Shown here piece by piece: positions 5,796-41,700 of a stretch of 64,000 bases of DNA. Every line of letters begins with the position of its first letter. Positions within the stretch are counted from its first letter, which is position 1. The DNA comes from Nereocystis luetkeana (taxonomy: Eukaryota > Sar > Phaeophyceae > Laminariales > Laminariaceae). Location: assembly GCA_031213475.1 (NCBI GenBank), contig JARUPZ010000026.1:5259567-5323566 (forward strand), read 5' to 3'. The position numbers were made by a program, and so were the translations under genes. The notes beneath the pieces were generated by a model. It worked only from the letters and a program-made list of their open reading frames with translations, was not told where the DNA came from and did not search any database.

Positions 5796-6383
5796 TATAA
5801 CCCGGGACGGAAGCGAGTCTCGGCAATGAAACACACAAGATGAAATAAAAGCTTGGTACATGGTATTACGCTTCACGTGACGCTTACCTGGTACCAGTAT
5901 ACAGTAGGCCCATAGTGCACTTCGAGTGAATCATATATATAGGTACATATTACACTTCAAGCGGGTTCTAACTGTAAGAGGGGGGTAAGGTTCCGATTCG
6001 CGACAATAATGGTCGGTATATATAATACTTCATATATATACCTGGTATATTGTATATCCCCTTTAAACCTCCGCTGGACCCACCGCCAATTGCCATACAA
6101 CTACGGTCACGCATGGCATGAGGTTCCCCATTCCACCTCGGATCAATCAGACTACCGACGTGCTTAGCAAAGCGGCAAGCCACCTTTTGTTTTTACACGG
6201 TCCGTGTTCCTCCCAAGGAAATCTGCGTAACCCCTTTACAGGGGAGGGAAAACACACCGGAAACGAACTGCTTTGATACAGTACAGCGTCGGCTACACGG
6301 AGCAGCTCAAGCTGCGGGGTTTATATGGGGGGGGGGTGTCCGTCCGAACTGCAGTGAAAGGAGCTGGGCCACACACGCGGAGC

Positions 6384-16709: not shown

Positions 16710-19700
16710 TGACACACGCGCTCTCACCGCGTCGACGAAGCTGACACGATTGACCGCCGAGTTTCCCGCACACGCGTCTCGAAAATCCTCCGAGTACGAA
16801 TCATTGTCACATCTTTCAAGTCGTGGCGACGGCGGCGGCGGCGGCGGTAGGGGACGGGGATGGGAGGGAATAGGAGAAATAGAGGGCAGGGGACAGGGGA
16901 CAGGAGACGGGAGCCGGGGGACAGGGGGCGGAGGACAGGTGACGAGGGACCGGGGGCGGGGGACAGGGAATGGGGGATGGGGTACAGGGGGCGGGGGGGG
17001 CAGGGGATGGGGAGCAGGGGACAAGGGGATAGGGGACAGGGGAATAGGGGGCGGGGAACAGAGAACCGAGGACAGAGTATAGGGGACGGGCGACAGGGGA
17101 CGGAGGGCAGGCGGCGACGGATGGGGAGAGGCGGCGGAGGACAAGGGACAGGCGATAAGGGGCAGGGGGCAGTGGTGGGGCAGGGGACAAGGAACGGAAG
17201 GTAGGGGACGAGGGATAGACGACGGGGGGTAGGCGACGGGGGACGGGGGACAGGGGACGGGCGACAGGGGTCGGGAGATTAGGGAACGAAGGACAGGGGA
17301 CGGGAGACATGGGATAGAGGAAGGGAGAACAAAAAAACAAAACACACACACGCGAAACAAGGAATACGCGGGAGGCGGGTAAAAAAACGGGCAACACGAA
17401 CCGGGGAGAAACAAATCGGACACCCCAAGAACACGCAACGCCGCCAACAGTTAACGAATGATCGAGAGTGGTGCGGCGTGCCCACATCGTTCGAACTCCA
17501 CTCGAATGCGATCCGTTCGCTAAAAACCACGGCCCCTTCCCCCTCCCACCCACCCCCCGCCCACGCCCGAAATCACGTACCGCTTGAGAATCGCGAGGCA
17601 CTTCGAGCATACAGAACCAGACCGGGGCACATCTACGAAGAGCGAGCGCAGGTCGGTTCAGTGACACTTCAAATTCAGTTCAGTTCGGTTCGCCAGGTGT
17701 GATCAGCTGATTCATTGCCCGAAAAGAAGAAGAGGTTTCCCGAGTAACCTGTATCGAAGAATCACTCTTTCAGTACTTTAGAGCGATATGCCGTAAAAAA
17801 AGACACCTGGTACCTGGTATGTTGCGTATATGCATGGGACACATCCAAAATCACTATCGAGTCATCTCAAATTCTGACTGGCATCGTTCATCCATCCTGG
17901 GCGAGACCATTCGCCAAAATTCAACGTAGCTCTCTCGTTAGGGAGGGGGGGGGGTGTACTCAATAGAAGAGATGTACTCGATCTCATGCATGGCCGTAGT
18001 CGTATGACCATAGACCCTCGCATCCCTACAATGCCGGGACGGAGCATGTCGGGTTTTCACCGACCAGGCAGGGAGGGGGGGGAGGGGGGGGGTCAGCTAA
18101 TTTCGAGTATTTTCAAAATTCTGACATCGTTAGGAGAAAACATAGCGTAGCTCTTGCTATTCATATCAATAGGACCTCTCGGGCCGGTGTAAGATGTGAA
18201 ACGGCCATCATCAACCGCTGTGTATGCTGTTGTAACAGAACAACAACAAAAATGTTCGATACTGGAGGTAGCTCGAGTGTCCCTTCGATTAAACTCAAAG
18301 TGGAGGGCGGGCAGTGGTCACTGCAGTGCTTGCTCCCCGTTGTTAAGCGTCGACCTTCCGGGGGCTCAAGTGCCGGCAGAAGGAAACGAACCGCGAGGGA
18401 TAACCGTTCCTGCTCTGAGCAGATGCATGCATCGGGCTTCCTTGGTTGTTGTTTTCAAGAATTTGGTGTTTTACGATCACCTACAAGTACTGGTGTACGT
18501 ATACTGGTATGAACGATGTATTCATAGCAAGATCCGTACAGCACTATTAATAGTAGTTTTGTGCTGCTGTAGCATGAAAATCCAGATACACATACCAAAT
18601 GAATCCTGGTCATACGTTTTTTGACAATTTTTACGCAAGGGTCTACAAACCCCCCCAATCAAGATCTGGGCCATATTCGACAAAAAAAGGATCGAACTTC
18701 GATGAGAGTCGATATAATAACACGGCAGGAGGTTGCGAGAGTGGCGCTCGCGTTCAGTTTAAACTTTTGTTTCCATCTTGTTGGCATCGTGTGCAGGGCG
18801 AGCTTTGGGATACAGCTCTCGTGATCGTATTGCCTGGTAGATGGTAGAACGTCTGAGATGGAACAAAGAGCTGTAGGATCAAAATGCGCCACTCGCCAGC
18901 CTGCCTACAGAAAGCACGAACATCACCTCCTGCGCTAGTGGATCACCCTCTGCAATCTTAACAGGTGTGTGCATACTGCGTTTTTCATATATCAAGAGCA
19001 GAAGAGGCCAAGAACATGTACGATAGTGAGACTCCCCAACAAACACGTACCAGGTACGTCCTCATGTACTGGTACGTCAAGATCTGCTGCAACATTTACA
19101 GGGAGTATTTCAAACATGTTTCAGTGTCTTGGTGTGCCTGTCACGTTTGAACTGCTATGAACCAACTTTCGATTGTCTTGTGTACCCCGACCCTCACGTG
19201 TCGGTCTGCTGTATCAGTGTACGAGATGGTACTGGCCGACATCAAGTGGAAGTCGAGCCTGCTGTAAGAATTATCGTCTCGTCGACCCTGGTAGCATCCA
19301 GGGGAGTCACCGGCCAGTACTAATAGCGAGTGGGGTAGGTCTTTCTGGCGGGTGTAAGGCCGGACTCACCCTCAAGGAGTGATACCTTCTTGCTGCTGCC
19401 TGTGGCCGCGAGGCTGAGGCGGCAGTAGAGTTGGGTCGTACGTGGTGCGTCAGGCACGGAGACCTACGATTCGCGCGTCTTTTTTAGGCAGCTGCGGCAG
19501 AGCAGCCATGCTCAATCGGGGTGTCCGTGCACGGAGGCAGGCGCCACCACAGGCCACACTACGGCACAGTCTATTGCGCCGGTAGGAGGCTGGATTCGAC
19601 GACGAGGGAGGAGGGAGACTGAGCGTCGACGTGCGGGGAAGAGACGGATTGACCTCCTCCTGCGCGAGAATTTTTATTTTTCAGATCAGAACCGCAAGTG

Positions 19701-21697
19701 CGAGGAGCATTTTGTTTTTCATGATGACGGAGAAAGGGAATCGACTGGAAGGGAATGGCAACGAGTGCACGCGCAAAGGAGCGGGTGGATTGGGCCAAGG
19801 CGATGAGGCGGCCATGAAGAGCGGCAGAAAGACGGTGCACGGAGACCCATGATCTGCGCGCACACTATCATCACGAGAGAAGCAGTCATAGTTTGTTTTT
19901 TCCTGGTTTTGTTTTTCACGAGGCAGAATAGTATCTACCGGTACTTGTCATTAACGTCGTCACTGGTCTTTGAGGTTTAACGAGTTGTATACCCTTCATG
20001 GGGAATAACCTACGCAATTATCAGGGACGTGGTATCATAACTGTGCTGCACCTTTTTGTGTCAGACAGTCCAGGAAAAGATGGCGATCGTTAATATTCGT
20101 GTGGTAGTAAGGTTCGATTCCTCCTTTTTTCACTGCATATCCGCGAGTCTTCACTCTGACAGCACTCCAGATAGCAGGCAGGTGTGTTCCTCTTTCGTTT
20201 TCACGACTACCGTGCGTTTCGTACGGTGCAGGCAGCACTTCAGACAGCATCCGCTGTAGTCAGCAGCCACGAGTTGGTTAGTGGTGGGAACGGGGGTATT
20301 CTATGTTATAGTTGAGAGGATATACCCGCGGCCATGTTAGTTCAGTTTGCACATTGGTTTTAGCTCGTGTGCGCTTTCTTCGTCTCGTGTATTTTGAGGC
20401 GGCCGAATTTTCGTTTTTTTTTTGTTTTTCGGATCTTCCTAGGGCTCCAGCACCTTTGTGTGGACCACGGACTCCTTCGTCAGAGAGTTAATGTGAGAAC
20501 AACAACAACAACAATAATCAATCGCGGGGGGAAATAATGGAAAACGCGCGAACAGTTCACGCAGCTTGCAAAGTTGAGTATCGACCGATCTGCCGATCGG
20601 TTGTACTCACAGCTGACGTGCTTTTTTAGTTTTATATCTAGTACTCATACCTCCAGCAGATCATGATCTATCTGCGTCCGAGAGATCATGGTTTATATAC
20701 AGAATATAGGTCATCTATATATCTACAGTAGATCATCTATCTATCTAGTAGATCATCTAGTTCCTCCTCTGCCGTTGTGAGAGGCCGAGCCGGATCTGTA
20801 CAGTACAGATCCAACCGAGACAAACATGTACTGAATCTTGCAGAGTACACGGCTCTCCCACCCGACAGCACACGAGGTAAAGCTAGAGCTAGATCATGCA
20901 AGGTCGGGAAAATAGCCCTACCTAGAAAGGTCCAGATCATGATCTGTAGATCATATGTAGATGATCTGTAGATGACCTGTCAGATGATCTGTCCGACCTG
21001 TGAAAATAGTACGAAAAAAATACGTCGGCCGTGAGCTCGACCGATCGAGTGGTTGACACTCGAACTCGCAAGTTGAGTGACACCATCGGGCTTGTGTTCT
21101 TCGGGGTATGCCTTCGATTTACCCTATCTCCGACAAAAAAAGGTTCCTGTACAGTACGATATACCTGGTATCTACTTACACCAGGTACATTTCGGAGCGA
21201 AGGATGCGAGTTTCTAATTTTGGTGACGGCGCTGGAAAAAAAGGGACCCTTTTTTAAGTTTTCACCGGAAGGAATCCACCGATACGCCGTAACGCCTCCG
21301 CCAACGCAAACACACAAGGTTGACGATAGTTATAGAATACACTGCTGCGCCTCCTGCTGCAGCCGCAGCTATGCTATCTTACTCGGGCGTGAAAATTAGC
21401 CGCTCGGTTCGCTCGCATTCACTAAAAACACGCCGTTACGCCAGAAGGAGGCGGGGGGGGTAGGGGGGGTGGGGCGGTGGGGCAATCGATCGGTTACCCA
21501 CCCGTCCAATATTTCTCAAGCGACGGCCCTCCGAAAAACAGCACGATCCTCACCCATCTTTCCAAGGGCCGTACTCGTCGAAGAGATCGTAGAGCCAATA
21601 CTGACCCAATATTGCTAGCACCACGGAGAAGATCATCAGACCCAGCGCCCGCACGCGCCCAACCATGGGGTCGTTCACCTCCCGTCCGCTCGTGCAG
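8865..21697 (-). CDS. SERINC/TMS1-family multipass membrane protein (N-terminal exon missing)
   Basis: Exons, in transcript order: 21697-21554, 16812-16728, 16066-15855, 15159-14961, (candidate 14553-14521), 12546-12371, about 10184-10031, 9080-8865. Every junction has GT..AG borders and compatible phase, except that the 5' border of the 10,184 exon is a choice. Together they give about 394 residues (405 with the microexon), against roughly 400-470 in the family, so about 30 N-terminal residues are missing. Diagnostic stretches: CTSGREVNDPM before the first membrane segment, DACAGNSAVNRVSF, NNGFWGFKSF followed by FIPNDFF, VLIDLAYR, SAVVTAYATFLCFSAVSK, SDCNP, YAMMLTNW and the C-terminal YGWTLIAPR..RDF. 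SERINC proteins are polytopic membrane proteins linked to serine-lipid metabolism and lipid scrambling; that role is family knowledge. Introns reach 4.7 kb and are filled with repeats. The family assignment is very secure. Confidence 0.93.
9635..9730. repeat. (CCGAA)n pentanucleotide array
   Basis: About 19 perfect CCGAA units, with related CCAAA variants from 9,620 to 9,885. In the SERINC intron. Confidence 0.95.
10031..10184 (-). CDS. SERINC exon: acidic cytoplasmic loop
   Basis: The donor GTGAGC starts at 10030, in phase 0 with the last exon. The frame reads SLESGDKSRPFVQDAVPVGD, then a Gly/Ser/Ala/Pro-rich stretch ending GGAVQDDGGL; SERINCs have a variable, often acidic loop before the last membrane segments. 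The 5' border is uncertain: AG at 10186-10185 (start 10184) keeps phase directly with the previous exon, while a better-looking CAG (start 10188) would need an extra unseen exon. An in-frame stop lies just upstream, which limits the exon to about 10,215. Confidence 0.65.
11403..11551. mobile_element. MITE, GGGGGACCATAGT family (internally duplicated copy)
   Basis: The ends are TATTACGGGGGACCATAGTT and its inverse complement, flanking an A/T-rich core with AAATATTGTTAGTAAAAATGG. The right half (GGTCCTATTAACTATGGTC plus core) is present twice. There is no coding capacity, so it must be mobilised by an autonomous relative, if at all. Confidence 0.85.
11609..11718. mobile_element. MITE, GGGGGACCATAGT family
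   Basis: A complete ~110-bp copy only 57 bp from the previous one, with terminal inverted repeats TATTACGGGGGACCATGGTT and AACTATGGTCCCCCGTAATA. Confidence 0.88.
12300..12366 (-). repeat. Decayed copies of the TM8 exon end and donor
   Basis: On the minus strand the exon end CTGCTGTCTCTCATCTGG plus donor GTGAGTCTTGG is followed by two diverged repeats of the same ~37-bp unit (GTGCTGTCTCCCATCGGGCGAG.. and CTGCTGTCTCTTACTCTGC), each separated by a CTTTTRC spacer. The copies have lost the GT donor context (GGGCGAG). Confidence 0.6.
12371..12546 (-). CDS. SERINC exon: TM7-TM8
   Basis: The acceptor is gctcactcag and the donor GTGAGT starts at 12370; 58 codons + 2 nt. It encodes LSGGEGNLLASAVVTAYA, TFLCFSAVSKTPTSDCNPF and LTVVLIGLGLTLLSLI. 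The GLL.SAVV..YA.FL..SA.S..P...CNP block is a SERINC hallmark. Two decayed partial copies of the exon end and donor follow within the intron (12,300-12,365). Confidence 0.92.
13395..13530. repeat. GGGTCGGGTC array with inverse partner
   Basis: Imperfect GGGTC repeats (GTCGGGTCGGGTCGGGTCAG) followed by CGGCCCGACCCGATCTGACC in reverse sense, so the array can fold back on itself. Confidence 0.75.
13703..14113. repeat. Tandem array of GGCCGTAAATATAAGGAC elements
   Basis: About three to four units of roughly 110-130 bp. Each has GGCCGTAAATATAAGGAC at one end, a core with ATTAATATNAACGG, the inverse CCTTATATTTCCGTCCAGAG at the other end, and a spacer TAGCGGTGTTCCAACAATAT. It lies in the SERINC intron between 12.5 and 14.5 kb. 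Confidence 0.8.
14521..14553 (-). CDS. Candidate 33-nt SERINC microexon or decayed exon duplicate
   Basis: Between an AG at 14555-14554 (tatcgag) and a perfect GTGAGT donor at 14520 lie 11 in-phase codons, LIISPILILAV. Both flanking exons are phase 0, so including it keeps frame. It would supply the roughly 10 hydrophobic residues that SERINCs carry between the ISLT..AV segment and the GLL..SAVV segment, and which are otherwise missing here. However, it is visibly related (23 of 33 bases by eye, donor included) to the 3' end of the preceding exon, so it may only be a dead partial duplicate. Confidence 0.4.
14675..14905. repeat. (CATTC)n-like degenerate array
   Basis: Repeats of CATTCCATTCC with CATCTCCTTCCACCT variants over about 230 bp. 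It lies between the candidate microexon and the 14,961 exon donor. Confidence 0.85.
14961..15159 (-). CDS. SERINC exon: TM5-TM6
   Basis: The acceptor is cgtgcacag and the donor GTGAGG starts at 14960; 1 nt + 66 codons. It reads VNDGLVDMANASGDGSEEGK, then YLLALISASAFLFAGSLAG, VMFHYFDGCPANEL and VISLTLILAV. This matches the SERINC order of WNE.W loop, hydrophobic segment, F.YF..C..N and the ISL hydrophobic segment. A diverged copy of its last 33-36 nt plus donor lies about 430 bp downstream (see 14521-14553). Confidence 0.9.
15484..15592. mobile_element. MITE, GGGGGACCATAGT family (diverged)
   Basis: The left end GCGAGGGACCATATTGAATA and right end TTTACTATGGTTCCCCGTAC are more diverged than in other copies; the core is retained. 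It is inserted in the GATC-rich element at 15.4-15.86 kb. Confidence 0.8.
15633..15741. mobile_element. MITE, GGGGGACCATAGT family
   Basis: A complete copy inside the same GATC-rich element. Its core GAAATACATAGGTTTTTG is an empty reference for the TACCGGTA addition seen in the 23.5-kb copy. Confidence 0.88.
15855..16066 (-). CDS. SERINC exon: TM2-TM4 core
   Basis: The acceptor is ttatacag and the donor GTCTGT starts at 15854; 70 codons + 2 nt. It encodes AFFLLMALCACC, then NNGFWGFKSFVWGLLLVASM, FIPNDFF and IMQQIVLIDLAYR. The blocks NGFW.FK, FIP..F and [VL]LIDLA are among the best conserved SERINC signatures. The codon split AG|G joins to the next exon as Arg. Confidence 0.92.
16168..16270 (-). 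repeat. Poly(C)-tailed interspersed repeat, tail displaced
   Basis: The inverse-complement body (CATGCATGGCCGCAGTCGTA ... GGAGCACGTCGGGTT) is present. The poly(G) tract lies about 60 bp further on (16,100-16,119), in the first bases of the SERINC intron upstream of the 16,066 exon. Confidence 0.65.
16728..16812 (-). CDS. SERINC exon: loop with conserved Cys
   Basis: An 85-nt exon: 1 nt + 28 codons. The acceptor is cttgaaag before 16812 and the donor GTGAGA starts at 16727. The first base completes the Gly codon left open by the previous exon (GG+A). It encodes CDNDSYSEDFRDACAGNSAV and NRVSFVDA, equivalent to the extracellular loop with two Cys and the [YN]R[LV][SC]F motif that precedes TM2 in SERINCs. 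The next exon continues in phase 0. Confidence 0.85.
16846..17320. repeat. GGGGACAGGGGACGGG minisatellite
   Basis: About 470 bp of G-rich GGGRACAGG / GGGGACGGG units in the SERINC intron directly upstream (in transcript sense) of the 16,812 exon. On the transcript strand this is a very long pyrimidine tract before that acceptor. Confidence 0.9.
17940..18067 (-). repeat. Poly(C)-tailed interspersed repeat
   Basis: Starts with poly(G) and GTACTCAATAGAAGAGATGT, then ACTCGATCTCATGCATGGCC through GGAGCATGTCGGGTTTTCAC. Confidence 0.75.
20640..21003. repeat. GATC-rich palindromic element
   Basis: Many AGATCATGATCT / AGATCATCT palindromes, GATCATCTAGTTCCTCCTCT and the end GATGATCTGTCCGACCTGTG. In the long SERINC intron. 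Confidence 0.6.
21554..21697 (-). CDS. SERINC exon: first membrane segment
   Basis: The acceptor is ttaaacag at 21698-21705 and the donor GTGAGG starts at 21553. The exon is 1 nt + 47 codons + 2 nt. It begins TGC (Cys) and reads CTSGREVNDPMVGRVRALG, matching the Cys-rich/SG motif and the Arg just before TM1 of SERINCs, followed by the hydrophobic LMIFSVVLAILGQYWL. Because the exon starts in the third codon position, at least one upstream exon is expected above 21,705; I could not find it. Confidence 0.88.
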
Positions 21698-23487: not shown

Positions 23488-23602
23488 TATTACGGGGGAC
23501 AATAGTTAATAGGACCAAATCTTGTCAGCAAAAATAGCGAAATATATACCGGTAGTTGTTTGTGTGTACCTTAGGTCCTATTTAATATGGTCCCCCGTGA
23601 TA
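23488..23602. mobile_element. MITE, GGGGGACCATAGT family
   Basis: A complete copy with both ends (CGGGGGACAATAGTTAATAG, ATATGGTCCCCCGTGATA). The core carries an extra CCGGTA at a TA (23,547-23,554) relative to other copies. Confidence 0.87.
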
Positions 23603-24169
23603 AAAGTACCGGTTTACTACTCCGTTGTACAATTTACCACTCTGTTCCGAAAAATAAAGACCACTTACATGAATTATTACTATACAAACGTTTCTTGTAC
23701 ATCGGTACAGAGTGGCCTGTTCCAGGTACAGATACCTGGCATACGGCGTTTAACCAGATACCTGGTTTATCTTGTTCGGTGCGCTGGTACGACGTACGTA
23801 GGTACGCCTCCATCGCCGTTGTTTTTCTTTCTCTTTCCGTCCTGTGGCATTCTTGTGGCATGCACGACCACCTCATAAATATTGACTGCCCCTCTGGCTG
23901 AGGTCTATCGTGACAAAAACGGGTTTTCTGCCGGGGTTTACTCCTTCCGCTGTTGTAGAGGCGAGTGTGACGTCGGCGGTGCGGCGCCATGTTGCCGTGT
24001 TGACATCCTGCTTGGTATCATGGGCTATCGAGATATCAGGTACTGGTTGGTACCTGTTAGACGTAAATCTACCAGGCCCTGGGCCTGGTACCAGGTATAT
24101 ACGATACTGGTACAGCATCATCATGTCCCGGCACACTATTAATAGTATTGGGTATCGGTGCACTATTAC

Positions 24170-24292
24170 TATTACTGGGGGCCATAGTTAACAGGACCAA
24201 ATATTGTTACCGGTAGTAAAAATGGTTAAACATATACCTGGTAGGTTTTTATGTATACCATAGGTCCTGTTAACTATGGTCCCCCGTAATAA
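24170..24292. mobile_element. MITE, GGGGGACCATAGT family with two TA insertions
   Basis: A complete copy, longer than its relatives because it holds TACCGGTA (24,209-24,216) and TACCTGGTA (24,235-24,243), where other copies have just TA. Confidence 0.88.
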
Positions 24293-24967
24293 TACTGGTA
24301 CTCGCTACGACGAAGTTATCAACCGAGTGCAGGTGTCACTTGTTTATTTCGCTTTGGGAGCAGTGTTGTGAACCGAACACCGAAAGTTGTTAGTTTCGGT
24401 CGGTTTTGTGTCGGTTTTTCCAACCGAAAACCGACTTCTGTTATTAATACCAGGTAGTCGTTTTTCCGGTTGGGGAAAAAAAAACGAACCGAACCGAACC
24501 GAACCGACTCAGTTTTTCTCGGTCGTTTCTTTTCCCTGTCCCCTATCCCAATAACGCCTTGATATATGTATGGAAACCCCTTTACCAGGTATAATGTATG
24601 GATACGCCACACGCGACACAGCCAGCACACAGCCCACAGCCAGCACGCAGCCCACATCCCGCAAAAGCATAGCAGCACGGCACACATGAGCAGCAGAGGC
24701 AGCAGGCAGCAGCAGTCGCACAAGGCACAGGGCACAATGCGCCGCGAGACTGCGAAGGATAAATCATGTCGAGTGCAGACAGCAGTGCTAGCTTCTCCGT
24801 TTGCTGAACTGTCGCACTGTCATCCTCTGCCTACAACAATGCTTGTTCGTGCTCACAGCCCCCCCTTACGCAGCGTAAATTTCTTCATGGTGTTAGCTGT
24901 ATGCTGCAAGTTGTGTCTTTATAAAATACAGAGTGTAACTACGCAGCGACACATTATATCATACCAG

Positions 24968-26392
24968 TATGCCATACAAGGCGCTTCGCTTCGCGGGCGA
25001 CCTACACCGCCCGCTACGCTCGCTCAGGAAGATAAAGTGCATCAAAATATGCGAAGCGGACAGAGGTCCATGATTGATTATTATAGTTTTATGTGACTGT
25101 AGTCGCAAAGTGGCGGCTTGATAGTGCCAAGAGTCCCACCGCCATGATTCAGGGAAAAACTGCTCGGAAGCCACATACACTTCGCGTCGGGGATGTCCCA
25201 CGTACGTACATACCCCAGGTAGGGTACTTATTTTCTTTTGATACCTGGTATGCTCTATATCATAGAACTACATACTTAGATCACAACCCCTGAGCGTGCT
25301 CGGTTGGTGCATCCCTGGCCTCTCAGAGCTCCCACTTCCAAACCGCCTTCTTTCATTACTTCCCGGACCTTTCCAGCAGTTCTTTGTTTTCTCGGTCCTT
25401 TCTTCTTCTTTCGTTTCGTGTGCGTGCGAGTTCTCCGAGCACGGCATCGCGGGAGGACCCGGCACCGTCGCGGGTGTCAGCGGGTGCTGGCGGGTAGAGG
25501 GGGGGTTGCAAGGAGCGCGGTCGCTGCTTTCGTGCCTAGGCGTCGCGTGTGCCTCGAGACACGAGGGATGCATGAACGGGCTTTGTCTGGCTTCGATTTA
25601 TGATTGTTGATAGAGTATGCACGAGTTTATAAAGGTCGTTCGGGACGGCAAGATAATATTCAAGCGGTGCTTATTTTTGCGACCACGCTGAAGTTGAAAG
25701 AGGGAAGTGTGCAGTTTGAACACCAACGTTATCGAGCTGGCGAACGACGGCCACGGTGAGCACCGGGCTTCACGCGGGGCGGGCGACGGGGCTGATTGTG
25801 GCAGAGAGTGATAAAAGCTTTACCCGGACCGAATCGGTGGCGAGGTGGTCGCGAGAGGGGCGGGCGGCGTACGAGGCTGAGAGAGAAGCTCTTCTGTGAG
25901 ATTTTTTCTTTTCTTCTTTTCGACCGGGTGTAAGGTGTTCCAATCAGGCAGAAAAATATTACACGAGAGGGGACGGGGATTTTTTTTCCTTTCCGAGTTT
26001 TCGGTTTCATTTTCATTGTTTTTGCTGCTGTGCCGTGCTGTGCTTTCGCTTTCTTCGTACATACAGTACAAAGATAGAGCATATCGAAAGAAGAAAATAA
26101 ATACAGACAGTAGTACCCTACCTGGGGTGTATGTACGTACGTACGACATCCGCGACGCGAAGCGTATATGTGGCATCCAAGCTGACGTCGGAGCTGTTTT
26201 TTCCTGAAGCATGGCGGCGGGACTCTTGGCATTATCTAGTCGACGGTTTGCAATTACGATCCTTGGAAACACTAAAATCAATCGTGGACCTCTGTTCGCT
26301 TCGCATAATCTGATGCACTTTTTTCCTTCCAGAGCGAGCGTAGCGGGCGGCGTAGGCCGCCCGCGGAGCGAAGCGCCTTGTATGTCCATACT
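24968..26392. mobile_element. Long-terminal-inverted-repeat element, copy 1
   Basis: The left arm starts CAAGGCGCTTCGCTTCGCGG and the right arm ends CGCGGAGCGAAGCGCCTTG. Similarity between arms runs about 260 bp inward, to GTACCCTACCTGGGGT and its inverse. The middle (25,262-26,050) has no credible protein; the frames that look long are unconserved between copies. It resembles a foldback or Mutator-like non-autonomous element. Confidence 0.6.
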
Positions 26393-26399
26393 CGTAGCA

Positions 26400-27216
26400 T
26401 GTATACGAAAGAGAAAAGCACAGCACGGCACAGCAGCATAGCGAAAACAATGAAAATGAAACCGAATTTTTCAGAGAGCAAAAAAAATCCTCGTCCCCTC
26501 TCGTGTACCTGGTGATTATTTTCTGCCTGATTGGAATACCTTACAGTGTACATTCCCTACTCCTTTACACCGGTCAAAAAGAAAAAAAAGAAAAAAAACG
26601 AACAGAAGAGCTTCTCTCTCAGCCTCGTACGCCGCCCGCCCCTCTCGCGACTCGCGACCATCTCGCAACCGATTCGGTCCGGGTAAAGCTTTCCTCCCTC
26701 TCTGCCACAGTGAGCCCCGTCGCCCGCCTCGCGAGAAGCCCGGTGCTTGCCGTGGCCCTTGTTCGCCAACTCGACAAAGTTGGTGCTCGACTGATGGGTC
26801 GCTCTTTCTGTGATTCTTAGTTTCGTCGCACAAAATAAGCACCGCTTGAATGTTATTTTGCATATCGAAACGACCCTTACATACTCGTACATCGTACAAC
26901 CGGAACCACACCAGGAGGCCAGACAGAACCCATTCATGCTTCCCTCGTGTCTCGAGGCACACGCAAACCCTAGACACGAAAACGGCGACCACGCTCCTTG
27001 CAACCTACCCTCTACCCGCCAGCACCCGCTGATACCTGCGACGGCGCCGGGCTCGCCCGCGGTGCAGTGTTCTAAGTACACGCACACGCACGAAGCGTAG
27101 AAGAAAAAAAGGAAAGAAACGGAGAAAACAAAGACCCGCAGGATAGGTCCGGCAAATAATGAAAGGAGGCGATTTCGAAGTGGGAGCTCTGACAGGCCAG
27201 GGATGTACTAACCGAG
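26400..27216. repeat. Inverted copy of the 25.3-26.05 kb segment
   Basis: It reads as the reverse complement of copy 1: GAAACCGAATTTTTCAGAGA, CCTCGTCCCCTCTCGTGTA, and GAGCTCTGACAGGCCAGGGA near its end. With copy 1 it makes a giant palindrome-like structure centred near 26.2-26.4 kb. It ends where the GGGYGTGTCC element begins. Confidence 0.75.
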
Positions 27217-27990
27217 CACCCTCAGGGCGTGTCCAAAACAGAATCGAAATCGAAAATCGACAATCGAAATGATAACAAACAAGGCGCTGATTGGTCTTTG
27301 TTCAAAACATGTTCCCCTTCGTTTTTTAGGTTTCCGAGAAAATGAACGATTTACAACCCAATGCAAAAATCAAAAAGTTGACGGCTGGAAATCGACACGG
27401 CAATCGAAAGCACGAACAGCAACAATTCAGCGCGTCCTACTGGTCAGCGACGCCACGTCAAAATATCACATCAGAACGGCCGTACACAGCATCCTACCCA
27501 CAGCTAGCACGGCAACACAGCCGCACAGACTCCCCCGTAAACAGCCAGCAGGCGAACCACAACACCAGCCCCGACGTTCTCGGGTCTTTGTTTCCCGGCG
27601 TTCGAGCCTAAGCGAACATAGTTTGAATAAAATTGAGGGTGATACACCCGAGAACGAGGTCGGAAGTTCGTTTCTCAGTATAATTTCAAGCTTGATCTCG
27701 GGGCGTCAACGTTGGACGCACCACCACCTCCATGGGAGGCCCAACGACCTACCGCAATCGAAATGCCGTCGCGTTTGCGGTGGATCTGTGTTGCCGAGCG
27801 CTAGATTGCCGGCATGTGCGCACAGTTGCGAACGGCCCAAGTAGGTTGCGCTCTCCGTTGCTTTTCGCCTGGATTTCTATTTTCACTTTTCGATTCTGTT
27901 CGGACACGTCGGCTAATTTGTATCGAAATCGAAATGAATTCGATATACGATTGCGCTTTTCGATTTCTGTTTGGACACACCCTCACAGGG
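27217..27990. mobile_element. Non-autonomous DNA transposon with GGGYGTGTCCAAA termini
   Basis: The left end AGGGCGTGTCCAAAACAGAA followed by TCGAAATCGAAAATCG is inverted at the right end (CGATTTCTGTTTGGACACAC followed by CCT), giving terminal repeats of about 35 bp around ~700 bp. The interior shows no transposase. GGGTGTGTCC-type ends are seen in several cut-and-paste families; I cannot assign one. Confidence 0.6.
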
Positions 27991-28062
27991 AGTGAGATCT
28001 AAGTAAGTGGTTCTACATACCAGGTACACGTTACGACAAACCCCCGGGCCAATAATTACTAG

Positions 28063-30524
28063 AGGTCGGTATCACTTTTGAAAACGCTCTGATATGATAT
28101 ATGATATATTCGTTAAAAAACGTGATATACGATACGATATGATATATCATATCATATCATATATCATATCATATGATATGATATATCAATATGATATGAT
28201 ATGATATGACATGACAGAAAACCCTCCAAGGCGCCCGAGAATTCCCCCAAGATCCACTTTCTTCTTCGAAGATCGGCAATAAGCCGACATGGCTCCAGCT
28301 CTAGTCTAGCTCGCACACAAGGAGAGAGCCATACATAGCTTGTCTGCCGTAATCTACAGCAGTCATACACCTACTGCCGTGTCACCATCGCTCTTTAGCA
28401 CCACACCCATCAGCAGCAGCGATCGCCTATATGCCTTCTCCTCCTCGGCGGGAGAGTTCCCGTAGATTTCACCGTGAAGATTAATGGTGGTGTCGTCAGT
28501 GTTATACAGTCTTCATGGTACTCGATTTTGAGGACGAGCGGTTGAAGTTGTTGCGAGCATTATTGACCGGTGATTGCACAGCAGCAGTATAGCTGCTGTG
28601 CATGCCTTGGGCCCGAGGTATTCCTGATTGTTGCGTACGTGATACAATATAGCAATGTGCGCCTTGTTTATATTCCGTGGAAGCGAAACATATTATTATA
28701 ATATGCTCTTACAGCATATGATATAGCAGCAGTATACCAGGAGGTACGTATGTACGGTACGTGGTACGTACGTACATACCTGGTGGCTGGTATTATAATA
28801 GCCTACTGCTGTATATTACGAGCAGGTGTAGGCGAGTAGAGCCTGGTTGAGCAGCTAAAATATACTATTAATACCAACGTAACATTTGTCAAGGTTTCCA
28901 ACAACTCGGCATCGTGCGATGAATGAATACATTTTGCTGCTTGCTACTTTTTTACTGCTTTTCTCGCTGACTGTGTGCATCACCCAGCGTTCGTCCCAGC
29001 GTGTGCTCGCAAACGATATACCTGGTACGAGTATTATACATACATGACATGGTTTGCCCCACTATTACTGACGCTGGATACTATGTTTGAAGGTTTGACT
29101 ATATTGGAATATATATGTGCTTACGAGCAGTGAGTGCAAAAGCAGTACACCCCAGCCCAAGATCGTCCTTGGCTACTGCTGTCGCCGCAAAGAACGCTGG
29201 AATGGTGACTTTTACACCATATCATAGAACTACATACTTAGATCACAACCCCTGAGCGTGCTCGGTTGGTGCATCCCTGGCCTCTCAGAGCTCCCACTTC
29301 CAAACCGCCTCCTTTCATTACTTCCCGGACCTTTCCAGCAGTTCTTTGTTTTCTCGGTCCTTTCTTCCTTTTTTCTTCTTTCGTTTCGTGTGCGAGCGTG
29401 TTCTCCGAGCACGGCATCGCGGGATGACCCGGCACCGTCGCGGGTGCCAGCGGGTGCTGGCGGGTAGAGGGGGGGTTGCAAGGAGCGCGGTCGCCGCTTT
29501 CGTGCCTAGGCGTCGCGTGTGCCTCGAGACACGAGGGATGCATGAACGGGCTTTGTCTGGCTTCGATTTATGATTGTTGATAGAGTATGTACGAGTTATT
29601 AAGGTCGTTCGGGACGGCAAGATAATATTCAAGCGGTGCTTATTTTTGCGACCACGCTGAAGTTGAAAGAGGGAGGTGTGCAGTTTGAACACCAACGTTA
29701 TCGAGCTGGCGAACGACGGCCACGGTGAGCACCGGGCTTCACGCGAGGCGGGCGACGGGGCTGATTGTGGCAGAGAGTGATAAAAGCTTTACCCGGACCG
29801 AATCGGTAGCGAGGTGGTCGCGAGAGGGGTGGGCGGCGCACGAGGCTGAGAGAGAAGCTCTTCTGTGCGATTTGTTTCTTTTCTTATTTTCGACCGGGTG
29901 TAAGGTGTTCCAATCAGGCAGAAAAATATTACACGAGAGGAGACGGGGATTTTTTTTCCTTTCCGAGTTTTCGTTTTCATTTTCATTGTTTTGCTGCTGT
30001 ACCGTGCTGTGCTTTCGCTTTCTTCGTACATACAGTACAGACATGGAGCATATCGAGAGAAGGAAATAAGTACAGACAGTAGTACCCTACCTGGGGTGTA
30101 TGTACGTACGTACGACATCCACGACGCGAAGCGTATATGTGGCATCCAAGCTGACGTCGGAGCTGTTTTTTCCTGAAGCATGGCGGCGGGACTCTTGGCA
30201 TTATCAAGTCGCCGGTTTGCAATTGCGCTCCTTGAAAACACTAAACTCAATCGTGGACCTCTGTTCGCTTCGCATAATTTGATGTAATTTTTACCTTCCT
30301 GAGCGAGCGTAGCGGGCGGCGTAGGCCGCCCGCGGAGCGAAGCGCCTTGTATCACATATCATATCATATGATATGATATATCTATATTATATCATATGAT
30401 AGTATATGATATGATATATCATATCACGGGTTTTTTCGTGATATTGATACACATATATCATATCACATATCGTATAATATATCACAATTTGTGATATGAT
30501 ACCGACCTCTATTAATTACCCTCG
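28063..30524. mobile_element. Composite foldback element with TAGAGGTCGGTATCA termini
   Basis: TAATTACTAGAGGTCGGTAT..CAC at the left is inverted at the right as ATGATACCGACCTCTATTAA. Just inside each end lies an ATATCATATGATATG array (28,090-28,215 and 30,350-30,505). It encloses copy 2 of the neighbouring element plus 800 bp of unassigned sequence (28.35-29.2 kb). Confidence 0.55.
29217..30350. repeat. Direct copy 2 of the 25.25-26.39 kb segment
   Basis: Nearly identical to copy 1 from ATCATAGAACTACATACTTA to the right arm end GAGCGAAGCGCCTTG, with small indels only. The left arm is absent. It lies inside the larger element bounded by 28,066 and 30,525. Confidence 0.85.
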
Positions 30525-30525
30525 C

Positions 30526-33500
30526 ATCTATATAGAAGTTTTTTACTGCAGCAACTACTGTTGTATCTTTAGTTACTGTTTGCTGCAGAATATAAGCACG
30601 TCTGACGTGCCAGTATGAGCTTATGTTGGCCTGTACCGTGTGACGCAGCAGACGCAGGTACTGCAGGAGGGTCGTTTGGCACCATACGACCGTCACATCA
30701 TGCCAATACATGCACACCGAACCCTTCGAAATACCGACCACTTCGTTGGTTTTGACGAGAAACCGGCCGAGAAACTGACCGAGAAACGTTCAGTTTCGGT
30801 TTCGTTTTTTTCGTTTCAACCCGACCGAACAAACCAACCGACTTTTTCGGGAAAAACCGAAAAGCCGACCGAGCCACTTTTCAATTTCGGTTCATAACAT
30901 TGTTTGGGAGTTTGGGAGTCAACAGCGTGATTCAACTGGTACACAGAACAACAGTGTTAGTGTTGGGTACCTGGTACAGCAGTACCGGTACAACTACACG
31001 TGCAGAAGTATACGAAGAATTGTAGACTGGATCTACGTGGAGGTCCCTGGGTCCTGAGGAAACGTAGATGTACGCGAGACTCCTGCACTATTTAATACGA
31101 GTACTGCTGTTGCGATGGATGCATGGACAGCTCGCCGTAGAAACCGGTAGTCACCGGCAGGAGTAATCGTATAAGCAAGCAGCGCAAGAGCATCTGCGGG
31201 TCGGTACCGGTACTTCAGCAGCACTGGTATTGGTAACGCTGTCTTTTTGTGTATTAGTAGCGCTGCACTGCTGCTGCTGCTGTGCCTCCTGGACCTGGAG
31301 AATTTCGGGCAAATGTCACTAAAAGGCGTCACAATGACAACACTGAATCCTAGATGTTGGTGTACGGATACTTGACAAAAAACCACCGAAAAAGTGAAAC
31401 ACTGCTGTGAGAGAGGAACCAGCAGCTGTAGATACGCGCGAATTACCCGACACATGACACACCACGACACCGCGACAACAACAGCGACAAGCAGCGCCGT
31501 TGCACGTATCATGCCACAGGAAAACAAAGCCGCCTGTGCGAGGCGAAGCGAACATCAACGTTGACGACAACATGCTGTTCTTGTGTGGCATACCAGCACA
31601 CGGCAAACAGCAGTATAGGGACGAGGGGGGCATTCGCTCGACGACGAGAAGCAGCAGCAGCCAAACAAGCGCCAACACTAGCAGGCAGAGTACCTATATA
31701 CGGTGGAGGTTAGTCAGTCAGCAAACTCGGTACCGTAGGTCACTCACCACCCTAGGCAGGAGCAACAGATGCTGGAGCAGCTTACACACGTCTGGCATGC
31801 CGCACAAGCTAAACAAGCGCCCATCCTCTCCTTTCTTCCTTGGGTATACTGCTCTCCTGCTTTTGGGTTCCGTGACCAGGTCACAGATCACCGGTTTTAG
31901 CTGATTCCTTGTTAGAGGGGCTTCACACCGAGAGGAGGTCAGTTGTCACAAGACACGTAGGTGGCAAAGCCAGGCTCCGTCCAGTTCACAGAGCACCAGC
32001 AGCCAGCGGATAGAGCAGGGATGGCGTGCAGAATATTTGATCGAGATTCCCAAGAAAAGTCTGCGGAAAAAGTGAGGAACCTGAGGAACTTTAGGGGGTT
32101 TCGATAAATCTTGGAAGCGTGTTCATCTCCGGAGAAATGCATATCGATTCGGGGCATCCTCTGCCGGCCTCCCCCCCGCACTGCACCCAGTGCCAAGTCT
32201 GCCACAGAACGGAGAGCGCGCGCGTGAGTACTAGCAGCGGACGATCAAGTTGCGGTGAGTAGTTTGGCGCTAGAGGGGATGGTGTATGCAGGTGTTGGTG
32301 TACGTTGTAGTCTTTCTGAGGCATCCAAAATATGAAAAAAAGTGTTTAATTTATGACTCGAGAGAGTCCTCTCTTCTGTCTTGAGAGATAGATGATCGTG
32401 CAGAATCTCGGGCCATTTGCTGTTGAAAGCTTGCACCAACACCTTCTACACATCGCAGCACTCTGTCTAACCCTTGTCGGTGATGACGGGGGCAATTCTG
32501 GCTCCACCGTTCGGCCACAAGTGCCAAGTACTCGGTGCAAGTGCCTGGCGCTCAGCACACGTCAGAACTTCGTAAGACAGAACGTGGAACGTAGAGCAAG
32601 CGCGCCTTAAAGTTACACCGCTTCAAGGCCTGATTGCGTCGCACAGCAGCAGCAGCAGCAGCGTCTCCGTTCTTTTGTCAATACATTGTAGTAGTGAGAA
32701 AGAACATCATGAGGCACCTCTTCATCTCTTATGGCCCGAATGCACCTTCTGTCCTCTGTTGGTACCGATCTCGAGTCTTGGTGCCGAAACAACCAACCAC
32801 GCCAATCCTCTGTCCATTCCCCCTCCTCCGCCCCCCCCCTCCCTCTTACTGAATCCTGCTATGTGCGATATGATGTTGATGCTACGAGTATCCCATACCA
32901 GGCACCAGGTATCTGACATAACACTACACATCCCAATACAGCGGTAGTACTCGTACATATGTGCAGCAGTGCCTGGTAGTTCGTAGCCCGTACTCGTAGG
33001 TTCTCCTATTTAGTAGCGAGTACGTAGCCGGCACCCCGGCACACTTGAACACGATATACCAGACATATTCCTATATCAAGCACTGAAAGTACGGCAGCAG
33101 GAGTAGGATTAGGATTCCTATATACCAGGTACCTGGTACGGTGTATTCTGATTTCCTCTTGTGTATGCAGAAATAGGAGTTGTATGAGCGACACCGATGA
33201 TAAACGGAATCAATGTATGTAGACAATCTACCTACAGTCTGCTCCAGTAGACGTAATCCCAACGCATGCGCAGGGAAGGTAGTGTAACCACGGTTAGCTT
33301 TTGTTACTGAACTGTCCTACGAGAAGCATTGCTGAAGCTGAGCTAACGCGGAAGGCATCGCTGAGAAGACGGAACTAATATCATGTTTACTCTACCTACA
33401 GCATATGCTTCAGAAAGCGTAACGTCCCAAGCACAGAGGAACCGATCAGGCGTTCAAGAGGGAGCAAAGCTGTGAACGTAAACTGAAACAAAGCTATATT

Positions 33501-33541
33501 TGATTTAGCAACTGCACCACCGACGCCGAAAAGGTTGGTAC
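30526..33541. other. No gene recognised
   Basis: Contains a GAAACCGACCGA-rich stretch (30,750-30,890) resembling the inverse stretch at 24,370-24,520, short AGC repeats (31,260; 32,645) and several 160-codon-or-shorter frames. The minus frame at 31,033-31,527 opens with a signal-peptide-like hydrophobic run (ATALLVAVVVAVSWC) but has no recognisable domain. Confidence 0.4.
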
Positions 33542-33848
33542 TATTACGGGGGACCATAGTTATTTATTTATTTATTTTTCTCATCCCATTTATTATCTTC
33601 GCACATCTCCTTGTCTCTCTCCTTCCAACTCGTAACTCAGATCCAGGGTCACATAGCAGGCTCTTCTTCCCCCTTCCCGCTACGGTACGTGCCTTCATTT
33701 TTATCGCGAGAAGATTTCAGCATTTTCTTCCCTCGTCGACTCGCATCGAATTGATAGAACCTATGGTATACATAAAAACCTACCTGGTATATATTTCACC
33801 GTTTTTACTAACAATATTTGGTCCTATTAACTATGTTCCCCCGTAATA
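33542..33848. mobile_element. MITE, GGGGGACCATAGT family, split by a nested insertion
   Basis: The left end (TATTACGGGGGACCATAGTT) and right part (from about 33,750) are separated by a ~190-bp insert starting with (TTTA)n. The right part also carries TACCTGGTA at 33,781-33,789. Confidence 0.85.
33560..33748 (-). mobile_element. Truncated SINE-like insert in a MITE
   Basis: It begins with (TTTA)n, i.e. a (TAAA)n tail on the minus strand, and shares the block GGTACGTGCCTTC...TTTATCGCG with the insert at 55.0-55.3 kb. The 5' head with promoter boxes seen in the other copy is not evident. Confidence 0.5.
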
Positions 33849-37400: not shown

Positions 37401-38423
37401 CGCTTGGGTGTCGGGGATCTCGGTGGGCTTCGCATTCTTAGCAGGAGAACGCTTGGGCGGGTCCAATACGTATAGCGGCCAGAAGATGAAAGATAGTGGT
37501 GTGGGAAGGGGAAGGTGCCCGGAGGGAGTGTGGGGGTGGGAATACCTTCGTGTCCGAGGGGCCAGAGGCTGAAGAGGGAGAACGTTGGAAAAGTCGGCTG
37601 AATGCTGACGATTACTCGCCGACTACCCGAAAAGCTGCGGAATGCTAGACGGCGGCGGTGTAACTGACTTCTAACTCAGGGAGTACGCGACGCGTACTTC
37701 GTATGCATAGAAGAAGCGATTACCTTCCGAATGCCGCACATCGCTTGCGCGGGCTATTCGTCGCCCTTGTTTTAATTAGTTCTTGCGGGTTTCGTGTTCT
37801 CGGTGACGCTAACCTCCACTCCCACATTCGACAAGAATGTATTCGATGGGCTTCCACTCGAGAAAGGTGACTGCGCGTGGGGTCATTTGGCACTCGTGCA
37901 AGAAAAAATGTGCTCGGCGACCCCGATTATTGCCCATTTTTTACCGCCTACATGTCTCGCCCTGGGCGCGGCTCTACGAAGAAGCAGACGCTTGCTCCAT
38001 TCACCGGGAGGATGCAGATGGTGCATATGGGCCTCCTCTGCTTCTTTCGTGGAGTCCCATTCCCCCCTTCCAGGATCTAAATCTTCCAAGGCATCGATGC
38101 ATCAACCATGATGTGTACGCACATGATCTGTAAGTAATGTTGCCGGCCGGGACCCGAATAATCCGCATGAATACACAATAGCACATGTTTTCCTCGGTTG
38201 GGTCTTGTGTCGGTCGGTGTGCAATGCCAATGTTTCCTTTAGAATCGGCCCAAACCCCAAGCAATTTTGTCCCCCCCACCCCCACACCCACCCCCCCCCC
38301 CTCCCGAAACGCCCTTTTTTGTTTCCAATTATATTGCATAGAATCAGCTGTATACGTGTATACTTCGAAAAGAACCTTCCCTGGTAAAACCATCCATCAT
38401 ACCTGGTACTGCTACATAGCGCC

Positions 38424-38790: not shown

Positions 38791-41700
38791 GGTGGTGGTG
38801 GTGGTGGTCGCTATGGGGTTGGTGGTTGTGGTGGGGGTGGTGATGGCGGCAGCGGTGGTGGTGGTAGTGGTGGCGGTGGTGGGGTGTGTGGAGGCGTTGG
38901 CGCAGTGGTGGTGTTGGCTGTGGTGGTGGTGGTGGTCGCTATGGGGTTGGCGGTGGTGGTGGGGGCGGTGATGGCAGCAGCGGTGGTGGTGGCAGTGGTG
39001 GCGGTGGTAGTGGGTGTGGAGGCGGTGGTGATGGTGGTGGTGACGTAGGTTTCGCGGCGGTTTTCGTGTCTGGTTCGCGGCTTTGCAGCGGGTGGTTTTA
39101 GCAGATTTTTGCAGCGGCTCGCAGCGGCTGTTTTTGGCCATCCTGTATTTTTTGCAGGTTCGGATTTTGTGCGGCGTGATTTGTGCGGTGTAGGGTGTAT
39201 GGTTTCGTTGTCCTTTGTGGTTGTTGTTTTTTGTTTTTTTTGTCCGAACTTTAGATGTGTGTTTTGATCCGTTATTTCGTTGTCTTCTATGGCCGTTCGT
39301 TTGTTCGGTTGGTTTGTTCGTTTTATGGCTCTTGTGTTGTTTGTATGTCTGCGTGTTTGGTTCGTCCCATACCTTTGTTGTTTGTGCATTTGCAAGTTTG
39401 CTGTGAACTGCTTTCACACTCATCAATCCCCCCCCCCCTTCCTCAAGCCCGCCTCACAAGCGGTTCTTAGTAGGATGCAGCTCACCCTTCATGCTACTCG
39501 CCGAACACCTCACGGCGCTTCGCGCTTGGTGCAAGCAATGTCTGCCTGGTCGGTGAACACCCGACGTGCTCCCTCCCGGCATTGTAGGGATCCGAGCGTA
39601 TATGGTCATACGCCTATTGTACGGCTATACATAGTCTCGAGTACACCCCCCGCCCCCCCCCCCCCGCCCCCTCCTCTATCGACCAGTAGTTACCAAGGTT
39701 GCGTATTTCCTGGTAGCGGCGGTTAGCGGTAGCTCATAAAGCTCGAACAAAATACTTACCGGGTGTAGTATTGGAGGGATTTCAACCTGTCCCCCATCCC
39801 CGCACCAGCAACGCTTCCATCTAGTATGGAAACCCACGACAGTGTGTTCTTGACAAGCGCTGCACGACAAGAGTAGGTGCGTACATCAGAGCTCGCCTAT
39901 CAATTACCAACACTATTACCAGGTACAGTAGTACACACAGAAGGACGCGTAGTTCCAGGAAAATAGACGCTCAAGGACTGATTGGAGCACGCACCTCTCC
40001 GTTCCATGCGCAAATACAACAGGCGGCCACGGCGGATTCGGCGGCGGCGGCGGATTCGGTCACCACGGAATGGGCGGCGGTTACGGATACGGTCCCGGTG
40101 GATTCGGGGTAGGGATCGGGGGTCACGGGGTTGGCTACGGCGGCGGTTACGGAAGGCACGGAGGCGGGTACGGGATGGGGGGGATGGGGGGCTACGGCGG
40201 TTATGGCGGAGGGCACCACGGATATCGGGGCTCGGCCATGAGGGTGCCCTGGCTGGGGGTGATGGCGGCGACGGCGGTGGCCGCGGGGGCCGCCTCGGTG
40301 TACCCCAGGGGGGCGAGGAGCCACGTCTCATGGAAGGAAGGGAACAAGCAGGTTTCCGCGCAGGTGCCGGTGCCAGCCTGCTTTTGTTTTATGTTCTTGG
40401 TTTTTTTTTTTTTCAGCATGCGTCGTCGTCCGTAAAGGGTTGGTGGCGAAGGGCGTGTTTCCTTAGGCTTGGAGATGAAGAAAACAACGGGTTTGTTCGC
40501 TGTTGTTTTTTTCTGGGGTTCTTGTCCCGTTTTTTGTGTTGCTTAGTTTGTTGGTATTCGCTCATTTTGTTGTTCAGTTTGCTGGTATTTCCTCTCTTTT
40601 TTTGTGTGTCTGAGCATTCGCCTGTTTTTGTTCATGTTTTTGTTTATGTTTTTTGTCTTTGTGCATGTTTTTGCGCTTGAAATGTCTTGTGGCTCTCTCC
40701 CTTTTTCTGTGAAGTCACTTGTTTTTGTCGCCCTCGCGTTTTTTTTTTCTTCTTTGAAGCCCGCTTCTTCTTACGTACTACATTTATAGTGCCCGCTTCT
40801 TTTTCTGGGACTTTGGCGCGGGAGCGGGAGGCTCGTGCTTGCCGCTCACGCGCGGGATGTGGCCCCTCCAGGCGGGTCGCACCACGCGGTTTTTGGTTAT
40901 TCCTGTCTCAAGAGCTGCCACGCAGCTAGAACCCCCCTCCCCCCCCTCCCCTATGAAATTATATCAGCTCATTCAAACGTCATCCATATGCAAGTCCGCC
41001 TCAAAAGCGGTTCTTAGTAGGATGCAGCTCACCCCTCTTGCGACTCGCCAGACACCTCACCGCGCTTCGCGCTTGGTGCAAGCGATGTCTGCCTGGTCGG
41101 TGAAAACCCGACATGCGCCGTCCCGGCATTGTACGGATGCGAGGGTCTATGGTTATACGACTACGGCCATGCATGATGTCGAGTACGTATCTCCTATCGA
41201 GTACACCCCCCCTTAGGTCATACGACTACGGCCATGCATGAGATCGAGTACATATCTCCTATCGAGTACACCCCTTCTGGTCATACGACTGCAGCCATGC
41301 ATGATATCAAGTACACCCCCCTCCCTCCCCCCCTCCTCGCGCTGCCGCCGCCTCCGGTCTGAGTCGCGGCTAGCATAAATCCCGCCCGACCTTCCCCCGG
41401 GTCGTCGATTACCAGTGCTACTCCCTCTTACACCCACGATAGACGGGTACCCGGGACCCCCCCCTCCTTACATCACGTGGGCGCAAAAATCGAAGCGTTG
41501 TGGAGGCTTTGAACAATGTATATACGAGCACACCATTGGGCGTGCCACATTCAGAGGTTGTCGACAACCGTCTCGCGGGGTTTGCAATAGATAGAAGACG
41601 CATGCATGCTACCGTAGGGGTGCACCAGGAATTTTCCGAGGCTCCTTCTTCCATTGAGGAAGTCCATATACCACCCCGAAACCGGCTTTAGCTCTTCTGG

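Follow-up and report, generated by a model that had tools for sequence, protein, structure and literature searches.

What has written the nine-base word TACCWGGTA (W, A or T) into the genome of the brown alga Nereocystis luetkeana? The question is raised by a stretch of 64,000 nucleotides (assembly GCA_031213475.1, contig JARUPZ010000026.1; C26:5,259,567-5,323,566), here called the window, in a 465,085,209-bp assembly of 1,987 contigs. A preliminary description, made from the letters of the window, had counted about 28 copies of the word where chance predicts fewer than one, and had proposed that they are footprints left by the excision of an element that targets TA and has CC...GG ends or, alternatively, ultra-short insertions. 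Here, we report that TACCWGGTA is a seven-base insertion at TA, as seen in pairs of filled and empty repeat copies. We consider it probable that a cut-and-paste DNA transposon of Tc1/mariner type left the word behind as a healed scar on excision.

The word is abundant across the genome

Exact matching returned 28 copies in the window (12 of TACCAGGTA and 16 of TACCTGGTA), and 200 dinucleotide shuffles of the window averaged 0.43 ± 0.63 copies with a maximum of 3, so that both the count and the low chance expectation given earlier held. The coordinates given with them were also right, except that the second TACCGGTA, the 6-bp form, begins at 24,208 and not 24,209. This form occurs six times in the window against 1.04 in shuffles (maximum 5), and TACCSGGTA (S, C or G) had no match there. 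CCWGG shows the greatest excess in the window of any five-base core between two TAs (28 versus 0.73 expected), and other cores are in excess too, such as TATCA (14 versus 0.70) and GTTAA (6 versus 0.23). Masking of tandem repeats leaves 24 CCWGG cores between TAs versus 0.53, and 4 copies of TA-GGWCC-TA versus 0.16. When CCWGG was paired with 15 other flank pairs, the big excesses were ATACCWGGTAT, which contains the word, and CTATTAATAG.

One conceivable origin is simple-sequence drift, by slippage or local duplication in GTAC-rich, AT-rich intergenic DNA. GTA and GTAC repeats abound in the window, which also holds two exact doubles spaced at 7 bp, against 0.11 expected. Yet after tandem and interspersed repeats (15.9 kb) were masked, 22 of the 28 words stayed, versus 0.44 under an order-3 Markov expectation, and TACCWGGTA was the most over-represented 9-mer of all that reach 8 copies or more. 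The two units of the double at 33,123 differ, one with A and the other with T. Across the 465-Mb genome, a count that the preliminary description had called for, the word occurs 182,395 times and the reversed-word control 1,744 times, some 100-fold more rarely. The word is thus enriched, and drift is an extremely unlikely source of it.

Subtracting the control leaves approximately 180,651 net copies genome-wide. Some 180,000 intact scars would represent 1.26 Mb of extra DNA at 0.39 per kb, a density taken from the genome-wide count only, because eight of the loci sampled below (L010-L017) were chosen for carrying the word. The centre is mostly A/T: TACCSGGTA occurs 10,882 times against 1,899 for its control, or 5% of the A/T class once controls are subtracted. 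A scan of viral contigs for nested doubles yielded nine contigs with two or three TACCWGGTA each, little beyond the double itself; a scan for the end of the miniature inverted-repeat transposable element (MITE) described next gave no match.

Filled and empty repeat copies reveal an insertion at TA

Of the 12 copies of a MITE family aligned in the window, 11 span the first site, and 8 of these are empty. Copies 24,167 and 33,751 carry a 7-bp insertion there relative to the empty aligned copies, copy 23,485 carries a 6-bp insertion at the same TA, and copy 24,167 has a second, 6-bp insertion at another TA, also program-aligned. All four had been proposed by eye and are now tabulated as filled or empty. 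The same holds for the element segment 26,407-27,227, filled at 26,506 relative to two empty copies with a word, TACCTGGTG, that bears one substitution. The element arm at 25,242 is filled relative to the opposite arm, as first described; this comparison was made by eye, not by program.

An indel survey of repeat self-alignments agreed with the MITE alignment that 7 or 6 bp are added with TA duplicated. It covered 279 kb, namely the window, L010-L012 and L016-L037 (L013-L015, which overlap, were left out; L016 and L017 partly overlap). Among 48 distinct 7-bp indels, 6 convert TA to TA-CCWGG-TA exactly and 3 more do so with one mismatch, while the other 31 TA-flanked palindromic classes (16 cores with a W or S centre) account for none. 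The 58 distinct 6-bp indels include CCGG in 2 (+1) cases and TTAA in 5 (+1), with none for the other 14 palindromic classes; five-base palindromic controls are not wholly empty (TWA 2, TSA 1). In the exact 7-bp cases at L018:5269 and L026:9584, one flank matches at just 8 of 12 bases. A stricter tally, with one alignment per site, retained 39 TA-duplicating insertions, among them CCWGG 4, TTAA 4 and CCGG 1.

The independent insertion events are fewer than these cases, because at least four fall on the same TA in a single MITE family (24,235, 33,781 and L037:7056 exact; L025:143 with one mismatch). Three window copies are filled at the identical TA, where shared descent is possible. Copy 24,167 is 84-87% identical to three empty copies and 81% identical to the scarred copy 33,751; the MITE tree has one well-supported fork out of eight and does not separate the scarred copies. 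It is likely, though not proven, that a single favoured TA was hit repeatedly.

These pairs bear on two other explanations. If the seven bases were ancestral, the empty alleles would have arisen by deletion between TA direct repeats. Two-base direct repeats do flank the core, and polarity is ambiguous at 25,242 and 26,506. Nonetheless, 8 of the 11 MITE copies covering the first site are empty, and deletion cannot place the same word 180,000 times at sites unrelated to one another, which makes this account hardly credible. Alternatively, the word may be a functional binding or recognition palindrome kept by selection or conversion, like HIP1, an abundant palindrome in cyanobacteria. The word is palindromic and present in huge number, and the inner C is the least varied position among its one-mismatch variants; its centre and outer positions, however, do vary. 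A HIP1-like word would originate by substitution, and related copies would then show no indel. The exact pairs of filled and empty sites, with TA duplicated, instead require insertion, so that a functional palindrome is very unlikely.

The preliminary description had named three results that would count against its proposal: filled and empty alleles differing by substitution, no genome-wide enrichment, and insertions of random sequence and length. None appeared: the seven bases were gained by insertion, and enrichment of the word extends to the whole genome.

Target preference, nesting and decay

Flanks and neighbours were counted around 128 scars in 329 kb, a sample that includes the word-selected loci L010-L017 and eight doubles, whose effect is to raise C at the first outer position. 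Bases outside the TA read Y 0.82, A 0.40 and T 0.43, against 0.60, 0.27 and 0.26 expected. The flanks thus lean to an AT-repeat palindrome and resemble the ATATATAT target reported for ZB, Sleeping Beauty and Bari (PMC7913693), with nested scars supplying some of the first-position C.

With up to two mismatches allowed, 8 of 56 neighbours lie at exactly 7 bp, none at 5, 6, 8 or 9 bp and one at 14 bp. Partners at this spacing are expected where a scar's own TA has been struck again. The spacing analysis found no clustering of scar sites beyond it.

One-mismatch variants are in excess in all five position classes of the 329 kb (50, 43, 32, 26 and 13 versus 17.5, 16.5, 12.8, 18.4 and 2.2). Within the window they dwindle towards the centre (17, 10, 6, 4, 0), a trend mostly gone in the larger sample. 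A constant-production model, which assumes equal change at all positions, fits production over roughly 0.2 substitutions per site, lasting until recently.

A parallel TTAA insertion and other short words

A second TA-flanked palindrome, TATTAATA, acts as a 6-bp insertion, with five exact filled/empty cases in the 279 kb. It occurs 93,112 times genome-wide versus 10,689 for the reversed word, and at nine sites in the window, from 3,380 to 53,514. One MITE flanked by TA, at L033:8651-8751 (101 bp including TAs), bears TTAACCC tips. Judged by their tips, this MITE or the window's TTACGGGGG MITE could be the source of TA-TTAA-TA, which suggests that tip-derived scars may be a general feature of this genome.

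TACWGTA, which has the shape of the Sleeping Beauty footprint, occurs 27 times in the window versus 6.0 in shuffles, about 4-fold (for example at 26,062, 30,031 and 39,924). As a candidate second scar it had no exact case among 50 distinct 5-bp indels of the 279 kb, with 3 at one mismatch.

Two further insertions were seen. At L029:1414, 6 bp yield TA-CCAG-TA, perhaps a lopsided variant of the CCWGG scar; TACCAGTA/TACTGGTA together occur 31 times in 329 kb. At 45,231, in MITE copy 45,156-45,275, 5 bp give TA-GGG-TA at the TA that holds CCGG in copy 24,167; this may be a damaged scar or one of another kind.

The search for a donor

A Tc1/mariner footprint would call for donor elements with matching terminal inverted repeats. 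Pairing TACCWGG ends by inverted inner sequence gave 373 pairs in the window and no donor. The sampled loci, L013-L015 excepted, gave 1,415 TACCWGG/CCWGGTA end pairs and again no donor; two oppositely oriented MITE copies form the best pair (20 of 20 inner bases), and the runner-up matches at 14 of 20. In the sampled loci, none of 145 exact TA-flanked inverted repeats has CCAGG or CCTGG tips, and a mismatch-tolerant search (301) had no CCWGG tips among the matches listed, which included all A- and C-initial tips. The tips found instead were TTACGGGGG, TTAACCC, CAAGGCGC and others. No recurrent donor-like inner sequence emerged when TACCWGG or TACC was lengthened by 4-8 bases. Sixteen window open reading frames, a minority of those present, were queried against Pfam and included no transposase; the one match above cut-off was FNIP. 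Since the sample is 0.07% of the genome, a family of about 1,000 copies could easily be missed.

Two repeats were considered as donors. The TTACGGGGG family has the hallmarks of a MITE (short, terminal inverted repeats, TA flanks, several copies, and several tip-to-tip matches of 109-110 bp including TAs) and is not the donor, because its tips are not CC. TACCGTAGCGGG (8 copies) was ruled out by a G at the third place.

That no donor was met in the 279-329 kb sampled while some 180,651 net copies exist is what an ultra-short insertion would predict: a 7-bp unit (CCWGGTA or ACCWGGT) added at TA with no long element ever involved, for example by a domesticated or aberrant transposase or integrase that attaches a very small piece of palindromic DNA. 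Eleven window sites read TACCWGGTG or its complement, as if ACCWGGT had entered a T|G step. Against this, we know of no mechanism for such insertion; the one-mismatch excess, found in all five classes and weak at the inner C, is roughly what decay gives; a MITE whose tips match the parallel TTAA scar exists; and a Tc1-like target preference follows more simply from a transposon. We therefore rate ultra-short insertion, the alternative raised by the preliminary description, as improbable and less likely than an excision footprint.

A model for the probable scar

The precise TA duplication, the self-complementary core, the Tc1-like target and the TTAA parallel favour the excision reading. An element with inverted tips starting CC(A/T)GG would enter TA and duplicate it. 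On excision, its transposase would cut the non-transferred strand about 5 bases inside each end, so that each flank would keep a 3' overhang, CCWGG. The two overhangs would be self-complementary save for a central A:A or T:T and could anneal directly. Repair of the central mismatch would give TA-CCWGG-TA, and loss of the unpaired base TA-CCGG-TA. Such a near-perfect fit would explain the uniformity of the scar, and a five-base overhang would account for both its A/T centre and the rarer CCGG form. A 3-nt CCW overhang with one-base annealing and fill-in would give an identical product; the stagger length is thus one that we infer. If N elements excise at rate u, N times u scars would arise per generation, and neutral scars would fix at that rate, so that, given a long time, even a family of modest size could account for 180,000 of them. 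The CC-tipped donor would now be rare or lost.

Several observations weigh against this model. No donor was seen in the 279-329 kb sampled, which make up 0.07% of the genome; of the footprint originally proposed, the TA duplication, uniform core, target and TTAA parallel stand and the element itself was not met. Tc1/mariner footprints are given as 2-4 bp (PMC7913693) or 2-3 bp (PMC3464196), not 5. Perfect excisions of rice DNA transposons number just 8 of 94 (PMC4423477), whereas the scar here is uniform. The TTAA scar is linked to a donor by tip sequence alone. Inner-C variants barely exceed expectation (26 versus 18.4), where plain decay predicts otherwise. Finally, the stricter tally contains other TA-duplicating insertions, with CGAC the commonest core (9), followed by CCAGG (4) and TTAA (4); from its letters, we take the CGAC core to be a single site of a dispersed repeat.

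Comparison with known systems

Sleeping Beauty and Frog Prince leave the excision footprint C(A/T)GTA (PMC3878927, Table 1). The scar here is likewise a palindrome between duplicated TAs with an A/T centre, but its core is CCWGG (5 nt) rather than CWG (3 nt). The proposed cycle would follow the Sleeping Beauty logic with a stagger of 5 nt in place of 3. Sleeping Beauty produces 3-nt overhangs (PMC7827188), and Tc1/mariner enzymes are described as cutting 2-3 bases inside the non-transferred strand (PMC2170065, PMC7827188). The AT-repeat target preference is also shared with Sleeping Beauty (PMC7913693). The main class here is 5 bp (CCWGG) and the minor class 4 bp (CCGG); insertion is at TA with TA duplicated, as in Tc1/mariner. 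Because the footprints cited for that superfamily are 2-4 or 2-3 bp, the scar would be a new variant, and we use the name Tc1/mariner as a working likeness, not as membership.

The inferred overhangs would share with piggyBac the self-complementarity that anneals to a uniform repair, but piggyBac targets TTAA and excises seamlessly, with no footprint (PMC3878927), unlike the TA target and 7-bp residue here. Rice Mariner (DTT) elements also target TA and leave residues, though excision of rice DNA transposons is mostly imprecise and the scar here is uniform (PMC4423477). Ciliate internal eliminated sequences are similarly TA-bounded, linked to Tc1/mariner and present at tens of thousands of sites; their excision is precise, and the parts of PMC3464196 consulted describe no CCWGG residue. 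In an algal genome, that of Ectocarpus, 17 Mariner-Tc1 families comprise almost 12,000 mostly non-autonomous copies (PMC12477816), a repertoire that offers a possible kind of setting for these scars; the word "footprint" does not occur in the main text of that paper.

Other features of the window

The window has a eukaryotic look: it contains long microsatellites and had no tRNA by ARAGORN (bacterial code) and no Rfam match. An element with inverted arms of about 280 bp starting CAAGGCGCTTCGC beside TA is accompanied by two partial copies, one of them 96% identical; the empty copies 25,257-26,383 and 29,219-30,352 are 96% identical to each other. Satellite-like ATATC/GATAT arrays (28,080-28,210 and 30,350-30,500) adjoin the copies of this element. 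Another repeat, dispersed in copies of about 90-230 bp and often edged by C or G runs, is perhaps a short interspersed nuclear element; its region 57,250-57,620 had no Rfam match.

Table 1. Probable scars and other features. Positions are those of the window unless a locus is named; no strand was assigned except where given, and the basis is an exact word match unless another is named.
Feature	Position	Basis and remarks
Scar TACCTGGTA	295..303	Exact match
Scar TACCAGGTA	3049..3057	Exact match; decayed neighbours up to ~3,100
Scar TACCTGGTA	3703..3711	Exact match
Scar TACCAGGTA	5444..5452	Exact match
Scar TACCTGGTA	5885..5893	Exact match
Scar TACCTGGTA	6039..6047	Exact match; within AT repeat
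Scar TACCTGGTA	6715..6723	Exact match
Scar TACCTGGTA	17811..17819	Exact match; adjoins one-mismatch partner at 17,804
Scar TACCAGGTA	19048..19056	Exact match
Scar TACCTGGTA	21162..21170	Exact match
Scar TACCAGGTA	24089..24097	Exact match
Scar TACCTGGTA	24235..24243	Alignment and indel survey; filled site in MITE copy 24,167-24,292
Scar TACCAGGTA	24448..24456	Exact match; shares TA with TATTAATA at 24,442
Scar TACCAGGTA	24583..24591	Exact match
Scar TACCTGGTA	25242..25250	By eye; in element arm, opposite arms near 26,085 and 30,050 empty
Scar TACCTGGTG (one substitution)	26506..26514	Alignment and indel survey; empty in 25,257-26,383 and 29,219-30,352
Scar TACCAGGTA	28018..28026	Exact match
Scar TACCTGGTA	29019..29027	Exact match
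Scar TACCTGGTA	30968..30976	Exact match
Nested double scar TACCAGGTACCTGGTA	33123..33138	Exact match and spacing analysis
Scar TACCTGGTA	33781..33789	Alignment and indel survey; filled site in MITE copy 33,751-33,848
Scar TACCTGGTA	38400..38408	Exact match
Scar TACCAGGTA	39917..39925	Exact match and spacing analysis; shares TA with TACAGTA at 39,924
Scar TACCAGGTA	46162..46170	Exact match
Nested double scar TACCTGGTACCTGGTA	48582..48597	Exact match and spacing analysis
Scar TACCAGGTA	50129..50137	Exact match
Scar TACCAGGTA	58605..58613	Exact match
Short scar TACCGGTA	1905..1912	Word match only
Short scar TACCGGTA	19936..19943	Word match only
Short scar TACCGGTA	23547..23554	Alignment and survey; 6-bp insertion at MITE TA shared with 24,235 and 33,781
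Short scar TACCGGTA	24208..24215	Alignment and survey; 6-bp insertion at second TA of MITE copy 24,167
Short scar TACCGGTA	30983..30990	Word match only
Short scar TACCGGTA	31205..31212	Word match only
MITE copy, TA sites empty	48331..48441	Alignment, inverted-repeat search; reference for empty state
Element copy, sites empty	29219..30352	Counterpart of 25,242 (by eye) and 26,506 (aligned)
TATTAATA sites outside the window	L024:4568, L025:7837, L027:7095, L030:6282, L033:3923	
CAAGGCGCTTCGC element and copies	24,950-26,396; 29,219-30,352; 26,407-27,227	
Dispersed repeat copies	1,401-1,543; 16,172-16,261; 17,948-18,071; 22,514-22,626; 39,444-39,670; 40,979-41,186; 50,305-50,434; 57,323-57,553; 61,897-62,120	
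FNIP-repeat open reading frame	62,495-63,922	Minus strand; Pfam; 475 codons, ten FNIP stretches

Implications

It is possible, if rather doubtful, that a TA transposase with a five-base stagger and self-complementary ends has carried out hundreds of thousands of excisions here, each healing to one and the same 7-bp scar, and that these scars outnumber surviving elements by orders of magnitude or, more boldly, that the 7-bp palindrome is itself the propagated unit, which a domesticated enzyme adds to TA with no long element. If the words are excision scars, they would record, like fossils, how often transposons have departed, even where the elements themselves can no longer be seen, and their uniformity would make excision rate, target choice and repair outcome measurable from sequence alone. 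Scars polymorphic among strains, if found, would serve as datable markers. Self-complementary ends cut with a stagger of five bases, if real, would widen the range given for the superfamily and would explain nearly seamless excision without piggyBac chemistry.

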